NCBI RefSeq assembly: GCF_007859765.1
Contig: NZ_SIHJ01000001.1
Coordinates: 372,767 to 436,766 of the forward strand
Direction of reading: 5' to 3'
From: Posidoniimonas corsicana
GTDB lineage: Bacteria > Planctomycetota > Planctomycetia > Pirellulales > Lacipirellulaceae
Length of the DNA: 64,000 nucleotides
Positions 18,994-44,439 of this stretch are shown here, in pieces; position 1 is the first letter of the stretch, and every line of letters begins with the position of its first letter. The notes below the pieces were generated by a model. The model made no database searches, had not been told where the DNA came from, and worked only from the letters and a program-made list of their open reading frames with translations. A program made the translations under genes and the position numbers.

Positions 18994-21372
18994 ATGAGTA
19001 GAGCTAGGGTGGTCTCAGCAGCGGTTGTGACCCTCGTCGGCGCAGCGCTTGGTGCGACGGTCGGCGTGTGCCACGCAGCAGCTGCGGACTCAGAATCGGC
19101 AGTCCCATACTTCATCGATCCGGCGTCGCCGCCCAGCGAGCCGATGACGCTCTGGTACCGACAGCCGGCTCGCGACTGGGAGAGGGAGGCGCTGCCTGTA
19201 GGGAACGGGCGGCTCGCCGCCATGGTGTTTGGAGGGGTGAACTCCGAGCGGATTCAGTTCAACGAGGAAACCGTCTGGGATGGAGAGCCGACCGACTACA
19301 CCAACCCAGCGGCGAAGGATGCGTTGCCAACGGTGCAACGCCTGCTGTTCGAAGGGAAGAACGCCGAGGCGACCCGCCTGGCCAAGATGGAGATGATGGG
19401 GCGACCGTTCAGGATTAAGTCTTACCAGACGCTAGGCGATCTGCATCTCGACTTTCCGGATGTCGAGGTGGTCTCGAACTACCGCCGCAGCCTGAACCTT
19501 GCGAACGCGACCAGTCGGGTGCAGTACACGGCAGACGGCGTAACCTACAGCCGCGAGGTGTTCGCCAGCTCGCCCGATCAGGTGATCGTCATCGCCCTCA
19601 AGGCGGACCAGCCCGGAAGGATCAGTTTCAGCGCGACCCTGGCCCGCGAAGGGGCGACGATATCATCTGAGTCAGGGCGGCTGATCCTGCGGGGAAAGCT
19701 AGGCGTGCGATACGAGGCGCAGCTCGCGCCGAGAATCCGTGGTGGGCAAGTGGACTGCCGTGACGGCAGGCTTGAAGTCTCGGGCGCCGATGAAGCGGTG
19801 CTGCTGCTGGTCGGGGCAAGCAGCTACAACAACGCGAGCGACATCTCTGGCGACCCCACCGAGCGTTGCGACGCGGTCCTTCGCGCGGTCGGCAACAAAC
19901 CTCTTGAGCGGCTGCGTTCCGCACACGTCGCAGACTACCATCGACTATTCAACCGGGTGCGGCTGGACCTGGGCGGGGCCGTTGCGCCGAACGTGGCGAC
20001 CGACGAGCGGCTCAACGCCGTGAAGCAAGGCGCGGCCGACCGACGGCTCGAAGAGCTGTACTTTCAATTCGGCCGCTACCTGCTGATCAGCAGTTCGCGT
20101 CCGGGCTGCCTCCCGGCCAACCTGCAAGGAAAGTGGTGCGATGCGTACAAAGCCCCCTGGAACAGCGACTACCACTTCAATATCAACTTCCAGATGAACT
20201 ACTGGCTGGCCCAGAGCTGTAACTTGGCCGAGTGCCATCTGCCCTACTTCGACTATCTCGAGAGCCTGGCGCCTTTTGGTGAGAAAACGGCCCGGGTTCA
20301 CTACGGGGCGGACGGCTGGGTAGTCCACCACCTCTCGGACATTTTTGGGATGGCGGCGCCAGCCGACGGTGTGCACGGCGTCTGGCCTATGGGAGCGGCG
20401 TGGGCGGTGCGTGACCTGCTCGAGCACTACCGGTTCAATGGGGACCGCGAGTTTTTGGTCGAACGGGCGTACCCCATGATGAAGGGCGCCGCCCTGTTCC
20501 TGCTCGACTTCTTGGTGGTGGCCCCGCCGGGCACGCCAGCGGCTGGCAGGCTCGTTACCAACCCGTCTCATTCGCCGGAGAACTCGTTTATCAAGGCCGA
20601 CGGCACGGTCTCCGAGTTTACCTACGCCGCGACGATGGACCTGCAGATCGTGCACGACCTGTTTAGCGGGGTGCTCGAGGCAAACCACGCCATCGACCCG
20701 TCCGGCGATTTCGATCCGGCGTTCAGATCGCGGATCGAAGCCGCCCTGTCGAACCTGCAGCCGCTGCAGGTTAGCCAATCAACCGGCCGACTGATGGAAT
20801 GGGTGGAGGACTACCAGGAGAAGGACCCACGGCACCGGCACACATCGCACCTCTTCGGGCTGCACCCGGGTCAGCAGATCACCGCATCCGGCACGCCCGA
20901 GCTGTTCGAGGCGGCGCGGAGGACGCTCGAGGCGCGGGGCGACCGCGGGACCGGCTGGAGCATGGCCTGGAAAGTCAACTTCTGGGCCCGGCTTCATGAC
21001 GGCGACCACGCCCACCTGCTGCTCATGAACCTTCTGCGCAAGAACACGCTCAGCAACCTCTTCGACAGCCATCCCCCCTTCCAGATCGATGGCAACTTTG
21101 GCGGCGCGGCGGCGGTTGCGGAGATGCTTCTCCAGAGCCACGAGGGTGAGCTGCACCTGCTACCGGCCCTGCCGTCGGCTTGGCCAGCGGGGTCGATCGA
21201 AGGGCTTCGCGCACGGGGCGGATTCGAGGTCGACATGCACTGGGCAGACCACAAGCTCACCCGCGCGGTCATCCGTGCGTCGCGCCCAGGGGACCTTAAG
21301 GCAAGATACGGCACGCAGGCCGTGGCGGCCCACCTCGCGACCGGAGAGTCCTACCAATGGGAATTCGACTAG
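18994..21372 (+). CDS. Alpha-L-fucosidase/alpha-L-galactosidase, glycoside hydrolase family 95
   Basis: The start is ATG 18994, preceded by AAAGGA and followed by a signal peptide ending near CHA-AA; an in-frame extension to 18829 is rejected for lacking both. The protein has 792 residues. Family features appear in order: an N-terminal sandwich with [15 protein letters not shown] and [11 protein letters not shown], then an (alpha/alpha)6 barrel with [29 protein letters not shown] (whose Glu lies in the expected catalytic region), [13 protein letters not shown] and [20 protein letters not shown]95 enzymes remove alpha-1,2-fucose or alpha-galactose by inversion. It is divergent from the oxidoreductase/GH29/GH141-like group, and together they form a fucose-glycan locus. 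Confidence 0.94.
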
Positions 21373-21689
21373 TGGTGCGTAGCCCCCCGCGTGAGGTCCG
21401 AGGGCACGCAGCGATGCTCGGCGGTGCGCAACGCTCCCTCACGGTTGCGAGGGATGCTCGGCGAGCTGACCACGGCCGAAGCCTTCGCTGTCGCCCTTAA
21501 GTCAACTTGCTCTTATGGGCCAGGGGCGTTTTGGGCTGCAATGACACTTACCCCTTCGACACGCCACGGTCCCCGCGAGATAAACTTGCTGCCCATCTCA
21601 ACCTGCCAGCCCTGCCCGCTGACTCAGACCACTCAGGCATGCGAACCATAGGTAGCACTGCGGCTGCCGGATCGCAGCCGTATCCATTA

Positions 21690-21925
21690 GAAACCGGCCA
21701 CCCGGAGCGATCTAATAGTAGGCGGGGACAGCTCTACCGCCGCGTGTTCAGCCGCTCAGAGAGGACGTAGTAGAGTCCGCCTCTCGCGGACGAAATCGGA
21801 CAAGACCCTCCCCCGGCTCCACCTGGGGTCCGCTGTAAGTCGCTATTGCAAAACGACTTAAGCGGAATGGCCAGGAGAAGTGCGGTCCGAGTTTTGTCCG
21901 CTTCGCGCGTGTTTTCGGACAAAAC
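21690..21925. repeat. Composite non-coding element, copy 1 (conserved box plus hairpins)
   Basis: Parts in order: box A at 21690-21727, beginning GAAACCGGCCACCC and ending AGGCGGGG; hairpin B at 21775-21791 (GTCCGC/GCGGAC, 5-nt loop); an extra hairpin at 21829-21866; hairpin C at 21891-21925 (GTTTTGTCCG/CGGACAAAAC, perfect 10-bp stem, 15-nt loop). Box A, a hairpin B and a hairpin C recur in the same order at 44204-44439, again between two convergent genes. That argues for one repeat family rather than chance. A role at 3' ends (termination or transcript protection) or a small mobile repeat are both possible; neither is demonstrated. Confidence 0.6.
21829..21866. terminator. Strong hairpin with one bulged base, possible bidirectional terminator
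   Basis: TCCGCT at 21829-21834 pairs with AGCGGA at 21861-21866, and TAAGTCG at 21836-21842 pairs with CGACTTA at 21854-21860. This leaves one bulged G and an 11-nt loop, a 13-bp stem in all. It lies between convergent genes, but no U-rich tail follows on either strand, so an intrinsic terminator is only one option. Confidence 0.4.
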
Positions 21926-21989
21926 CTCATTGGCCGAAACCAATGCGGGCGCAGCGCCCGGGTTTGATGCGCGGGCGGGCGGATGAGGG

Positions 21990-23417
21990 CTAGGGGGCGG
22001 GAGACGGCACGGGGGGCTGATCGCCGGTCCTGGTCATCAGGAAGTCGACGATCTGGGTGAGCTCTGCGGAGGTGATGCTGCTGGCGAAGGCGGGCATGTT
22101 GTAGCCGCCGTTGTTGATGCGGACGATCAGGTCGTCGCGGGTGAGCTGCTGCCCGATGGTCGACAGGTCGGGGCCGCGGTGGCCACCCGATCCGGAGATC
22201 GCGTGGCAGTACAGGCAGCTCTTGGAATGGACCAGCTGGGCGCCGTTGAACACCGGCCCCTCGGTCGCGCCGATGACGCTGGGCGCCAGTTCTGGCACGT
22301 CGAAGTCGGGTGACCAGGGCTTACGGTAGCCGTAGGCGGTGAGCACCACGAAGCCGGCCGACGCGGCGATCACGATGCCGACGGCCCAGGGGCGCTTGCT
22401 CGGCGCCCGGTGGCCTTTGTTGGAGAGCAGCGGCAGGCAGAACAACGCCAGGAACCCGAGTACCGGCACGCCGAGGATGAACCAGACCTCCAGCGCGGGG
22501 GGCAGCAGCGACAGCACCGCGAAGTACCACCAGAAGTACCAGTCGGGCATCGGGTTGGAGTGCACGTTGGCGGGGCTGGGCGCCGCGTCGAGCGCGGGCG
22601 GGCCGAACACGAGCGCGCAGCCGACGATCACCGCCCCGACGAACGCCGAGAACACCACGTCGCGCCACATCGCGGTGGGCCAGAACGACACGCCGGTCTC
22701 GCGCAGGCGGGCCTCGTAGGCCGGCTTGTAGGTGGTGGGGTCGACCGGCTGGTTGACGTCGGGCATCTCGGACACGCCGTGCCGGAACAGCAGGAACAGG
22801 TGCAGGCCGACGCCGGCGATCACCACGCCCGGCAGCACGAACACGTGGTAGACGAAGAAGCGGGTCAGCGTCGAGCCGCCCACGGTCTCGCCGCCTAGCA
22901 GGAAGTGGGAGATGGCCGGCCCGACGATCGGCGCGCGGGAGGCCATCTCGGTCGCGACGAACACGGACCAGACGCCGTTGGCGTCCCAGCGGAGCAGCTG
23001 GCCGGTGAACGCCATGCCGAGCACCGCGAACAGCAGCACCACGCCGGTCATCCAGTTGAGCTCGCGGGGGTACTTGTATGCCGCGTGCAGGTAGACCTGC
23101 GCGAGGTGGATCGCCACAAGCATGATCATCGCCGAGGCGCCGTACGCGTGCATGCCGCGGAGCACCGATCCGAACGGGGCTTCCTCGGTGATGTACCGCA
23201 GGCTGGCGTAGGCCAGGTCGCCGCCGGGCACGTAGGCCATCGCCAGGCACACCCCGGAGCAGACCTGCACGATGAACGCGGTGAGCGTGGCGCTGCCGAA
23301 CACATACCACCAGCGGGCGTCACGCGGCACGGTGTGGCCGATGATCGGCAGGATGCAATCGGTGAATCCGAGGCGGCTGTCGATCCAGTCCCACGATTTT
23401 TTGAGGAGCGGAATCAT
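21990..23417 (-). CDS. Cytochrome b fused to a c-type heme domain (bc complex, QcrB-like)
   Basis: This 475-residue integral membrane protein is the quinol-oxidising core of a bc complex. Heme b ligands are visible as His90/His104 (13 residues between) and His191/His206 (14 between, the b6f-like spacing). The Qo-site signature is PDWY at 291-294 instead of the commoner PEWY. After the last helix a c-type domain follows, with CLYCH at 401-405 and a distal Met in GGYNMPAF. The gene therefore carries its own cytochrome c function, and no separate c1 gene is present. It is the last gene of the leftward operon, 7 bp after the Rieske stop. Confidence 0.93.
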   Translation of the reverse strand: MIPLLKKSWDWIDSRLGFTDCILPIIGHTVPRDARWWYVFGSATLTAFIVQVCSGVCLAMAYVPGGDLAYASLRYITEEAPFGSVLRGMHAYGASAMIMLVAIHLAQVYLHAAYKYPRELNWMTGVVLLFAVLGMAFTGQLLRWDANGVWSVFVATEMASRAPIVGPAISHFLLGGETVGGSTLTRFFVYHVFVLPGVVIAGVGLHLFLLFRHGVSEMPDVNQPVDPTTYKPAYEARLRETGVSFWPTAMWRDVVFSAFVGAVIVGCALVFGPPALDAAPSPANVHSNPMPDWYFWWYFAVLSLLPPALEVWFILGVPVLGFLALFCLPLLSNKGHRAPSKRPWAVGIVIAASAGFVVLTAYGYRKPWSPDFDVPELAPSVIGATEGPVFNGAQLVHSKSCLYCHAISGSGGHRGPDLSTIGQQLTRDDLIVRINNGGYNMPAFASSITSAELTQIVDFLMTRTGDQPPVPSPAP

Positions 23418-43866: not shown

Positions 43867-44157
43867 ATGAATCCCCCCCCGTGGCTGCGGCGTGCGTGTG
43901 TGATCTCGCTGCTGGTGGGGCTGCTGCTGGTCGTGCTCGGGCCGGTGATCGCATCGGTCGCCGCGTGGTCGATGGTGGACGAGCAGGCCGCCGACCGCGT
44001 TGAGGCGTTCAATCAAGCCAGGGCGCCGTGGCTGAAGGTCCTGATCTGGACCACGCCGATCGGCATGGCGATGGTGTTTCAGGGGATCATCGGGCTGCTG
44101 TTCCTGTGGGTCACCCGCGTGGCGGGACCGCCGCCCGAAGCCGGCAGCCGCGAGTAA
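43867..44157 (+). CDS. Small two-helix membrane protein, function unknown
   Basis: A 96-residue protein from ATG 43867, 51 bp after the kinase gene. Two hydrophobic helices are clear (ACVISLLVGLLLVVLGPVIA and MAMVFQGIIGLLFLWV), separated by a charged loop. No known motif. It may share a transcript with the kinase. Confidence 0.6.
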   Translation: MNPPPWLRRACVISLLVGLLLVVLGPVIASVAAWSMVDEQAADRVEAFNQARAPWLKVLIWTTPIGMAMVFQGIIGLLFLWVTRVAGPPPEAGSRE

Positions 44158-44203: not shown

Positions 44204-44439
44204 GAAACCGGCCACCCCGAGTGGTCCAATTGAAGGCGGAGTGAACTCTGCGTCCACGTGGCTTGGACGCGTTCCGACTTTTGTCCCTATCGCGCGCATC
44301 GGTGGGACAAAACTCAAACCCCTAAGCCCCCGCCTTGATCGGACCACCCTTAAAAACAAGGGATAAACCGCTGCTCAGGCCGGATGTGTCGCCCGACTTT
44401 TGTCCCTAAGAATCGATAGCGCCAGAAGGGACAAAAGTC
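44204..44439. repeat. Composite non-coding element, copy 2 (conserved box plus three hairpins)
   Basis: Parts in order: box A at 44204-44241 (GAAACCGGCCACCC and onward, AGGCGGAG); hairpin B at 44250-44270 (GCGTCCA/TGGACGC, perfect 7-bp stem, 7-nt loop); hairpin C at 44279-44312 (TTTTGTCCC/GGGACAAAA, 9 bp); hairpin C' at 44395-44439 (GACTTTTGTCCC/GGGACAAAAGTC, perfect 12 bp, 21-nt loop). The order matches copy 1 at 21690-21925. Both copies lie between convergent gene ends. It fills almost all of the 301-bp gap between the small membrane protein and the Bax-inhibitor gene. Confidence 0.62.

Follow-up and report, generated by a model that had tools for sequence, protein, structure and literature searches.

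A high-copy, BIME-like composite intergenic DNA element with conserved half-sites and rigid geometry in Posidoniimonas corsicana

The window analysed here is a stretch of 64,000 nt from Posidoniimonas corsicana (C1:372767-436766 of the host genome, G000, which comprises 6.77 Mb in 13 contigs). It holds two copies of a composite element, and both lie, as the first-pass annotation had stated, between converging genes: copy 1 between gene ends at 21372 (+) and 21990 (-), copy 2 between gene ends at 44157 (+) and 44459 (-). The parts follow in the order box A, spacer, a first palindrome (H1), a core (M) in the interval behind it, and a second palindrome (H2):

21690..21727, + strand: copy 1 box A, GAAACCGGCCACCC plus about 24 bp; 31/38 identical to copy 2; seen in the genome-wide logo
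21728..21770, + strand: copy 1 variable spacer; the spacer is unconserved at the one orthologous pair compared
21771..21808, + strand: copy 1 H1, decayed, with the 5' half-site remnant GAGTCC and the 3' half-site TCGGACAAGACCC; contains GTCCGC/GCGGAC; positioned by eye with the help of the type II alignment, 86 bp from H2
21830..21866, + strand: copy 1 core M, of the AAGTCG..CGACTTAAGCGG type
21887..21925, + strand: copy 1 H2, foot CCGA plus GTTTTGTCC..GGACAAAAC; seen in the half-site logos
44204..44241, + strand: copy 2 box A; 31/38 identical to copy 1
44242..44275, + strand: copy 2 variable spacer, the box A-H1 interval
44276..44315, + strand: copy 2 H1, GACTTTTGTCCC..GGGACAAAACTC
44345..44371, + strand: copy 2 core M, the CCCTT..AAGGG variant
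44395..44439, + strand: copy 2 H2, GACTTTTGTCCC..GGGACAAAAGTC

The 38-bp box reported earlier at 21690 and 44204 is borne out: its first 14 positions match exactly (14/14) and 31/38 match overall, and the runner-up ungapped match to the 38-mer in the window, both strands scanned, reaches 22/38. The 10-bp GTTTTGTCCG/CGGACAAAAC hairpin of copy 1 was also found, at about 21890-21925. A further claim, that three modules recur in the same order in both copies, holds for the box and for H2; the middle module differs. The GTCCGC/GCGGAC hairpin is present in copy 1 (21775-21791) and absent from copy 2, whose middle module is a full TTTTGTCC..GGACAAAA palindrome (44279-44312). The short stem of copy 1 occupies the H1 position, so that copy 1 carries a decayed H1 where copy 2 has an intact palindrome. 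Features that the annotation had not described are the core that separates H1 from H2, the rigid spacing of these two palindromes, and the existence of two sequence types, copy 1 being type II and copy 2 type I. The pattern TTTTGTCC-(5-30)-GGACAAAA occurs 3 times in the window, always within the two elements, and 0 times in 100 shuffles. No described family had been recognised in the element; in agreement with this, the 64-kb window gave 0 Rfam matches at gathering thresholds, and searches for planctomycete repeats and RNAs in the literature outside subscription journals listed no description of the element.

The annotation had made a repeat family depend on further copies in the host genome, and these are plentiful. 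Allowing at most one mismatch, the box GAAACCGGCCACCC occurs 123 times (68 forward, 55 reverse; reversed control 0), although the box matrix did not confirm some one-mismatch matches in the stretches that were read, which are non-elements. The palindrome TTTTGTCC-(14-26)-GGACAAAA occurs 192 times (reversed control 0), and the composite GGACAAAA-(76-94)-TTTTGTCC, which joins the facing half-sites of H1 and H2, 127 times (control 0). A first contig search with a type I hairpin pattern had given 0 matches. In the 2.06 Mb of host sequence read in detail, largely chosen around matches, 101 boxes score at least 8 bits, and reversed sequence gives 0 at 4 bits or more. These boxes are followed by two palindromes in 80 cases, three in 5, one in 11 and none in 5, and two of the five boxes without palindromes score merely 8 and 12 bits.

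The anatomy of the copies is a mixture of variable and fixed distances. Box A has a consensus around GTAGAAACCGGCCACCCAGCGCGGTCCAATGGGGG, and the spacer between it and H1 ranges from 62 to 244 bp (85 copies), with no helical phasing detected. The H1-H2 interval measures 83-88 bp in 84/85 copies, even though the core and its flanks differ. H1 is 33-36 bp long, or 43-44 bp in 8/85 copies; H2 is 33 bp long in 41/85 and 39 bp in 37/85. Both palindromes are inverted pairs of one half-site, GASTTTTGTCC and its complement. Types I and II, the two main ones, differ in their arms, core and H2 length, and a type I core sits inside at least 5 of the 34 aligned type II modules, indicating that modules have been exchanged. 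The half-site TTTTGTCC is nearly restricted to elements (337 of its 352 occurrences in the 2.06 Mb; the reversed motif occurs 15 times). We considered the regulon of a regulatory protein and rejected it, as TTTTGTCC is found outside elements at the control rate (15 vs 15). Separately, C1:1137654 carries an array of palindromes with five TTTTGTCC/GGACAAAA sites and no box A by the matrix.

Half-sites are by far the best conserved part of the module. Their columns are 98.6% conserved in 36 type I modules and 95.4% in 34 type II modules, compared with 65-66% for other columns; the acceptance rule for palindromes (at most 3/16 mismatches) raises the half-site figures. The alignments cover 36/40 type I and 34/45 type II modules; modules with additional inner sites, with a long H1, with three palindromes or with a site that has decayed were left out. 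Among copies found through box A, 85/101 keep at least two palindromes, and 111/170 palindromes are free of mismatches; under 35% decay, about 2% of copies would be expected to have two acceptable palindromes. Compared in pairs, modules are on average 61-62% identical and at most 79% (type I) or 81% (type II), with 70/85 modules aligned. With module identity at most 79-81%, no recent burst or mobility of copies is seen. At least five whole-element pairs are 74-78% identical over about 300-350 bp (counting the 70 top-ranking of 3,157 alignments), and this similarity, which begins ahead of box A and ends beyond H2, points to past duplication as a unit.

At one locus, on which the evidence for orthology rests, one pair of orthologous genes encloses the element in the same gap both in the host (C5:123937) and in a genome of the same genus (G001, L212), the flanking proteins being 94% and 50% identical. 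The modules match at 33/37 positions in H2, 20/24 in M, 12/16 in the 3' site of H1 and 23/38 in box A, and the sequence outside them at 33/79 in the spacer, 8/28 between H1 and M and 39/86 upstream. Two other host elements, at C3:137804 and C3:144949, have no counterpart adjoining the orthologous gene of G001; since the other neighbour differs there, these are not clean empty sites.

We then looked at relatives. The exact composite is found in 7/43 genomes of the family (host 127, G001 88, G028 14, G027 7, and one each in G021, G031 and G011), with a reversed control of 1 in two genomes. Composite intervals in relatives are mostly 84-87 bp among the matches listed. Across 392 genomes of the phylum, 8 besides the host have one composite each, which is not above the reversed control. 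A variant search, TTTTGYCS-(14-26)-SGRCAAAA, in the 43 Lacipirellulaceae genomes returned 195 palindromes in the host, 113 in G001, 34 in G011, 27 in G016, 21 in G026, 13 in G021 and 9 in G013 (reversed controls for G026, G021 and G013: 0, 2 and 2). It extends the distribution to the sister genus g13 (G013 and G026), where both arms are changed, to TTTTGCC/GGCAAAA, in nearly all listed palindromes. Variant arms include TTTTGCCCCA/TGGGGCAAAA and TTTTGTCGCA/TGCGACAAAA, and some variant palindromes have a ATCGATTC loop resembling that of the host type I H2. At locus L251 of G026 the variant composite keeps the same interval (84 bp).

Three match strings from G028 and G021 also occur in loci of the Planctomycetota MAG OFTM39 and of Aeoliella straminimaris (Lacipirellulaceae, Pirellulales). 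OFTM39 accounts for 9/13 stretches examined, and all nine (9/9) have an upstream box, around GATGGAATTCCACCCACCATTCCACGACAATAAC, followed by H1, a different core, H2 and further half-sites. By eye, G011 has a box of its own, around CAAATAGCCACC, and that of G001 is different again (for example GAAAAGAGCCGCCCAGCGCGGTCCAAT in L208). The distance between half-sites repeated on the same strand is 10 bp in OFTM39, 8 or 11 bp in G011 and 14-16 bp in G001; host type II has its trailing half-site at 14 bp. Other Lacipirellulaceae genomes have the plan of the element in common with the host. An origin from phages or plasmids was rejected: copy 1 is unmatched in plasmids, copy 2 in phages and the composite in viral contigs.

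Two observations in these genomes concern other repeats. The spacer between box and H1 in OFTM39 (L260, L264, L270, L272) often holds another long palindromic repeat, GGGTGCCACTG..CAGTGGCACCC, and looks as if it were a landing site for it. G016 (26 copies) and G032 (5 copies) carry a distinct TTTTGTCC..GGGACAAAA palindrome, whose inner part, GGGGTCCCATGTTTTGGGACAAAA, hardly varies among most of the copies listed; it may be a young MITE that uses the same half-site.

A non-autonomous repeat had been one of the readings offered earlier. Whole-unit duplication speaks for it and makes a mobile origin possible; the recent mobility that it might also imply is not seen. In its most specific form, the element would be of REPIN/BIME or MITE type and moved by a Y1/HUH transposase, with the palindromes and the CCGA foot as recognition structures. 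According to the available text of PMC6006769, class 3 TnpAY1 transposases of Planctomycetes are associated with structures that have a CnGA foot and reach up to about 600 copies per genome. The H2 foot agrees with this, reading CCGA at positions -5..-2 (C82 C71 G97 A87 percent, two-palindrome copies), and the H1 foot is weaker. High copy number, intergenic position and the whole-element pairs fit as well, as does a slight bias by which orientation weakly tracks local GC skew (30/42 vs 14/33, P = 0.018). The host encodes two class 3-like TnpAY1 proteins (L228:1405-1881 and L226:1378-1920), with Y----Q and W[TA] features recognised by reading. One of the two genes has an element, on one side: its start lies about 160 bp past H2 at C2:772727. 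In G026, the class 3-like locus L251 has a GGCAAAA/TTTTGCC composite about 1.1 kb from the gene, and the G001 Y1 locus L156 also contains a composite.

Against such mobilisation, composites occur at 2/31 class 3-like loci (the host one and L251) vs 1/71 other loci of relatives (the Y1 locus L156), a comparison from which the window's own locus, L187, was excluded. The class 3-like family is found in 33/59 genomes searched, and G001, with its 88 composites, has one distant match. Hairpins flanking class 3-like genes in relatives mostly belong to other families, near-identical copies are absent (modules are at most 81% identical), and simple decay would not have spared the half-sites. As the gene family fails to follow the element and so few of its loci contain composites, we regard movement by a Y1/HUH transposase as possible if doubtful, and the role of a class 3 enzyme as resident mobiliser as unproven.

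In relatives, several class 3-like homologues are flanked by long hairpins of other families, for example GCGTTAGCGCCCGGAG..CTCCGGGCGCTAACGC in L236; Lacipirellulaceae thus carry several palindromic repeat families. In G018, where the patterns used detect no composite, an inverted repeat GACAAAAG..CTTTTGTC (L235:2127-2164) lies about 100 bp from a class 3-like gene and is perhaps another version of the half-site.

Are the palindromes conserved as stems or as sequence? In 36 type I copies, 81.2% of stem cells are paired vs 80.3% after shuffling of partners (27/500 shuffles as high), and the covariation score was reached by 44/500 shuffles, i.e. there is no covariation within the host. For core M alone the corresponding values are 66.1% vs 62.3% (16/500), with covariation reached by 110/500. 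RNAalifold gave 15 pairs for the host copies, 0/15 with both sides changed. The single informative inner pair of H2 is broken in 14/36 type I copies, mostly as C-C, and H1 of type II has a 3' half-site that hardly varies and a 5' arm, its would-be pairing partner, that is often decayed. This one-sided decay, together with the lack of covariation, makes the half-sites look conserved as sequence in the host. Between genera the picture changes. The two arms agree at the variable position in 9/9 palindromes of G013, 21/21 of G026 and 8/13 of G021, the remaining 5/13 of G021 having unlike arms, 2 of them T-G. Stem variation without compensatory changes, which the first-pass annotation had named as telling against its reading, is thus what we see within the host and not what we see between genera (G013, G026). 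Concerted arm change of this kind fits paired stems or twin half-sites equally. We allowed the change of both arms in genus g13 to raise an RNA reading slightly and to lower our preferred explanation slightly.

The placement of the copies bears on the same question. All 101/101 copies fall in gaps between gene calls, with overlaps of at most 13 bp (the calls come from a home-made caller, not from annotation). By gap type, 35 are convergent, 51 tandem and 15 divergent; all 1,495 gaps of the same region comprise 250 convergent, 1,007 tandem and 238 divergent ones. The proposed enrichment in convergent gaps is clear, P being 1e-5 when gap counts are the reference and 1e-8 when only gaps of at least 250 bp are, a comparison in which the element itself lengthens its gap; confinement to such gaps does not hold, since convergent gaps account for only 35/101 copies. 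Divergent gaps hold the share of copies that gap counts predict (P = 0.89); only in comparison with long gaps does this share come out low. Of the 202 gene ends adjoining elements, 121 are 3' ends (P = 0.007), and the median distance from H2 to the 3' end of the facing gene is 57-70 bp.

Both enrichments and this short distance would suit an RNA-level element, be it a 3'-UTR structure, a bidirectional terminator or a small RNA family, as would the arms changed on both sides between genera and the folding of 24 single copies into stems or one long rod. A small RNA, one of the earlier suggestions, finds no support within the host in the pairing and RNAalifold results above. The inner H2 pairs broken in 14/36 copies and the unlike arms of G021 also weigh against RNA, as do the 15/101 divergent and 51/101 tandem copies and the lack of Rfam matches in the window. 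A terminator scan of 21300-22100 reported only two other sites, both on the minus strand (21928-21960) and between the facing gene and H2 of copy 1, leaving H1 and H2 unreported. We consider a function at the RNA level unlikely.

Close neighbours are scarce. For 61 boxes on C1, 1 distance is below 10 kb vs 7.8 +- 2.4 at random, and 5 are below 20 kb vs 14.9 +- 2.9 for random gap placement, which used the gaps of one 400-kb stretch, tiled. This set omits matrix-unconfirmed matches and three unread ones and includes two positions, at 4.08 and 4.13 Mb, that were likewise unread; with the three doubtful matches added, the results below 10 and 20 kb stayed the same. In a wider set of 64 positions over 2.97 Mb the numbers are 4 vs 11.8 +- 2.8 below 10 kb and 16 vs 21.8 +- 3.0 below 20 kb, and the overall CV is not significant (P = 0.19). 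Even spacing could alternatively come from deletion between direct repeats. The copies might also be relics of Mu/Tn7-like transposon ends: a transposase would bind the array of GGACAAAA sites, box A would be the opposite end, and target immunity would keep copies apart. This would account for a set of several oriented sites facing a box of another kind and for the depletion of close neighbours, and TnsB sites of Tn7 contain GACAAAAT, but the resemblance is short and the distance from box A to the end of H2 (under about 0.5 kb in the 85 two-palindrome copies) too short to code a transposase, and we hold this to be highly improbable.

The element is itself a target of mobile DNA. One insertion sequence (ends AGCTCTGTAGAAA; DDE_Tnp_1 and DUF772 domains) sits in five H2 half-sites:

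C1:682671, 1445561, 2054548, 2743481 and 3292404 (host, G000): H2-inserted IS copies, in loci L054, L043, L072, L087 and L099, respectively

Both IS junctions are readable at two sites, where 8 bp of the half-site, ACAAAACT, are duplicated. The IS with ends AGCTCTGTAGAAA is a target-specific insertion sequence. A sixth interrupted H2, at C1:2449601 (L080:7949-9337), carries an insert of about 1.2 kb with a 463-aa frame in which an HTH_17 domain, a Resolvase domain and a weak Pox_D5-like match are recognised; the insert may be IS607-like or integrase-like. In all six, the insertion points lie within a few bp of one another, and distances in the 85 two-palindrome copies leave no room for similar inserts elsewhere. 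REP sequences are known insertion-sequence targets (ISPsy8, ISPa11, ISPpu9 and others, as far as the accessible part of PMC1525189 covers them). The present case is similar in that palindromes are hit by other mobile elements, and differs in that the target is the TTTTGT half-site and the transposase is of the DDE_Tnp_1/DUF772 kind.

Taken together, the evidence leads us to prefer a selected DNA element that binds protein to an RNA hairpin or to a recent transposon. More fully, we read it as a high-copy, BIME-like composite intergenic DNA element that is selected and docks a predicted dsDNA-binding protein, a reading that we hold tentatively and place somewhat short of even chances. Counted in its favour are the number of copies, the conserved half-sites and the near-restriction of TTTTGTCC to elements, the rigid geometry, seen in relatives too, the absence of covariation in the host, the one-sided decay of type II H1, the persistence of an orthologous copy and the scarcity of close neighbours, as well as the 10-bp (OFTM39) and 11-bp (G011) distances between half-sites repeated on one strand. 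Counted against it are the concerted arm change in g13, which does not decide, the non-uniform spacing of direct repeats (8, 10, 11, 14 or 16 bp by genome), the missing phase between box A and H1, the CV of the spacing and the single locus behind the orthology. The binding protein was not found, co-occurrence having been compared for Y1 transposases only.

On this proposal, a sequence-specific dsDNA-binding protein would dock on the inverted half-sites as dimers, which may clamp or loop the 85-bp interval; box A would bind the same or a partner factor, and protein and half-sites would drift together between genera. Less securely, the complexes might act in chromosome organisation or topology and be tolerated mainly behind gene 3' ends and apart from each other. 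The spread of the copies, through duplication or transposition, is probably old, and their persistence now due mostly to descent and selection. A bolder version makes the more than 100 rigid 85-bp modules, distributed at a distance from one another along the chromosome and lying behind genes, a family-specific, chromosome-wide system of docking sites for an undescribed architectural protein organising the planctomycete nucleoid, its half-sites and core drifting by genus (TTTTGTCC, TTTTGCCCC, TTTTGTCGCA) with geometry kept; this we think rather unlikely. Elsewhere, MatP/matS and gyrase-BIME sites are thought to organise chromosomes. Planctomycetes have unusual condensed nucleoids, and to our knowledge the proteins and sites that organise them are largely unknown. 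A selected, high-copy DNA element of fixed geometry would be a direct bait for a nucleoid-organising protein. As a sequence family with concerted genus-level changes it would test how REP/BIME-like elements become functional chromosomal sites, and it serves other insertion sequences as a safe landing site.

Among known repeats, REPs are defined as short stem-loops that carry the tetranucleotide GTAG or CGTC at one of their ends (PMC3733652, in its accessible portion). This tag is absent here, the foot of H2 being CCGA in the logo; box A often follows GTA and begins with G, but any stem at that place would have a variable left and a fixed right arm. The copies resemble REPs in being extragenic, in exceeding 100 (127 composites) and in lying in convergent or tandem gaps (86/101). 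The REPs of class 3 TnpAY1 share with them the CnGA foot, high copy number and a host with two class 3-like genes, one beside an element, and differ in that the repeat flanks the gene at only 2/31 class 3-like loci here. Bacterial MITE-like repeats such as Correia/NEMIS, RUP and ERIC are short, non-coding and mostly intergenic (PMC2229807, in the text available), as is our element, whose copy number of about 100 is like that of RUP; unlike in them, terminal inverted repeats were not seen at its outer ends, one being box A and the other H2.

The closest likeness is to BIME-1, whose copy number is about 100; such elements also go by the name RIP. In E. coli, going by the available part of PMC2817692, BIME-1/RIB consists of two inverted REPs around an IHF site, and BIME-2 is bound by gyrase. 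The present element likewise has two palindromes, three in some copies, around an internal core at near-fixed spacing, and it is intergenic, biased to 3' ends and present in about 100 copies. It departs from BIME-1 in palindrome loops of about 16-24 nt, in lacking a GTAG/GTGG tag and, by eye, an IHF consensus in M, and in the extra oriented box A 62-244 bp upstream. BIME-1/RIB is defined by the fixed spacing of two inverted palindromes together with a core that binds protein; the spacing is found here in 84/85 copies (83-88 bp), and the core may bind protein. Without claiming membership, we suggest by analogy that the element may work most like BIME-1/RIB.
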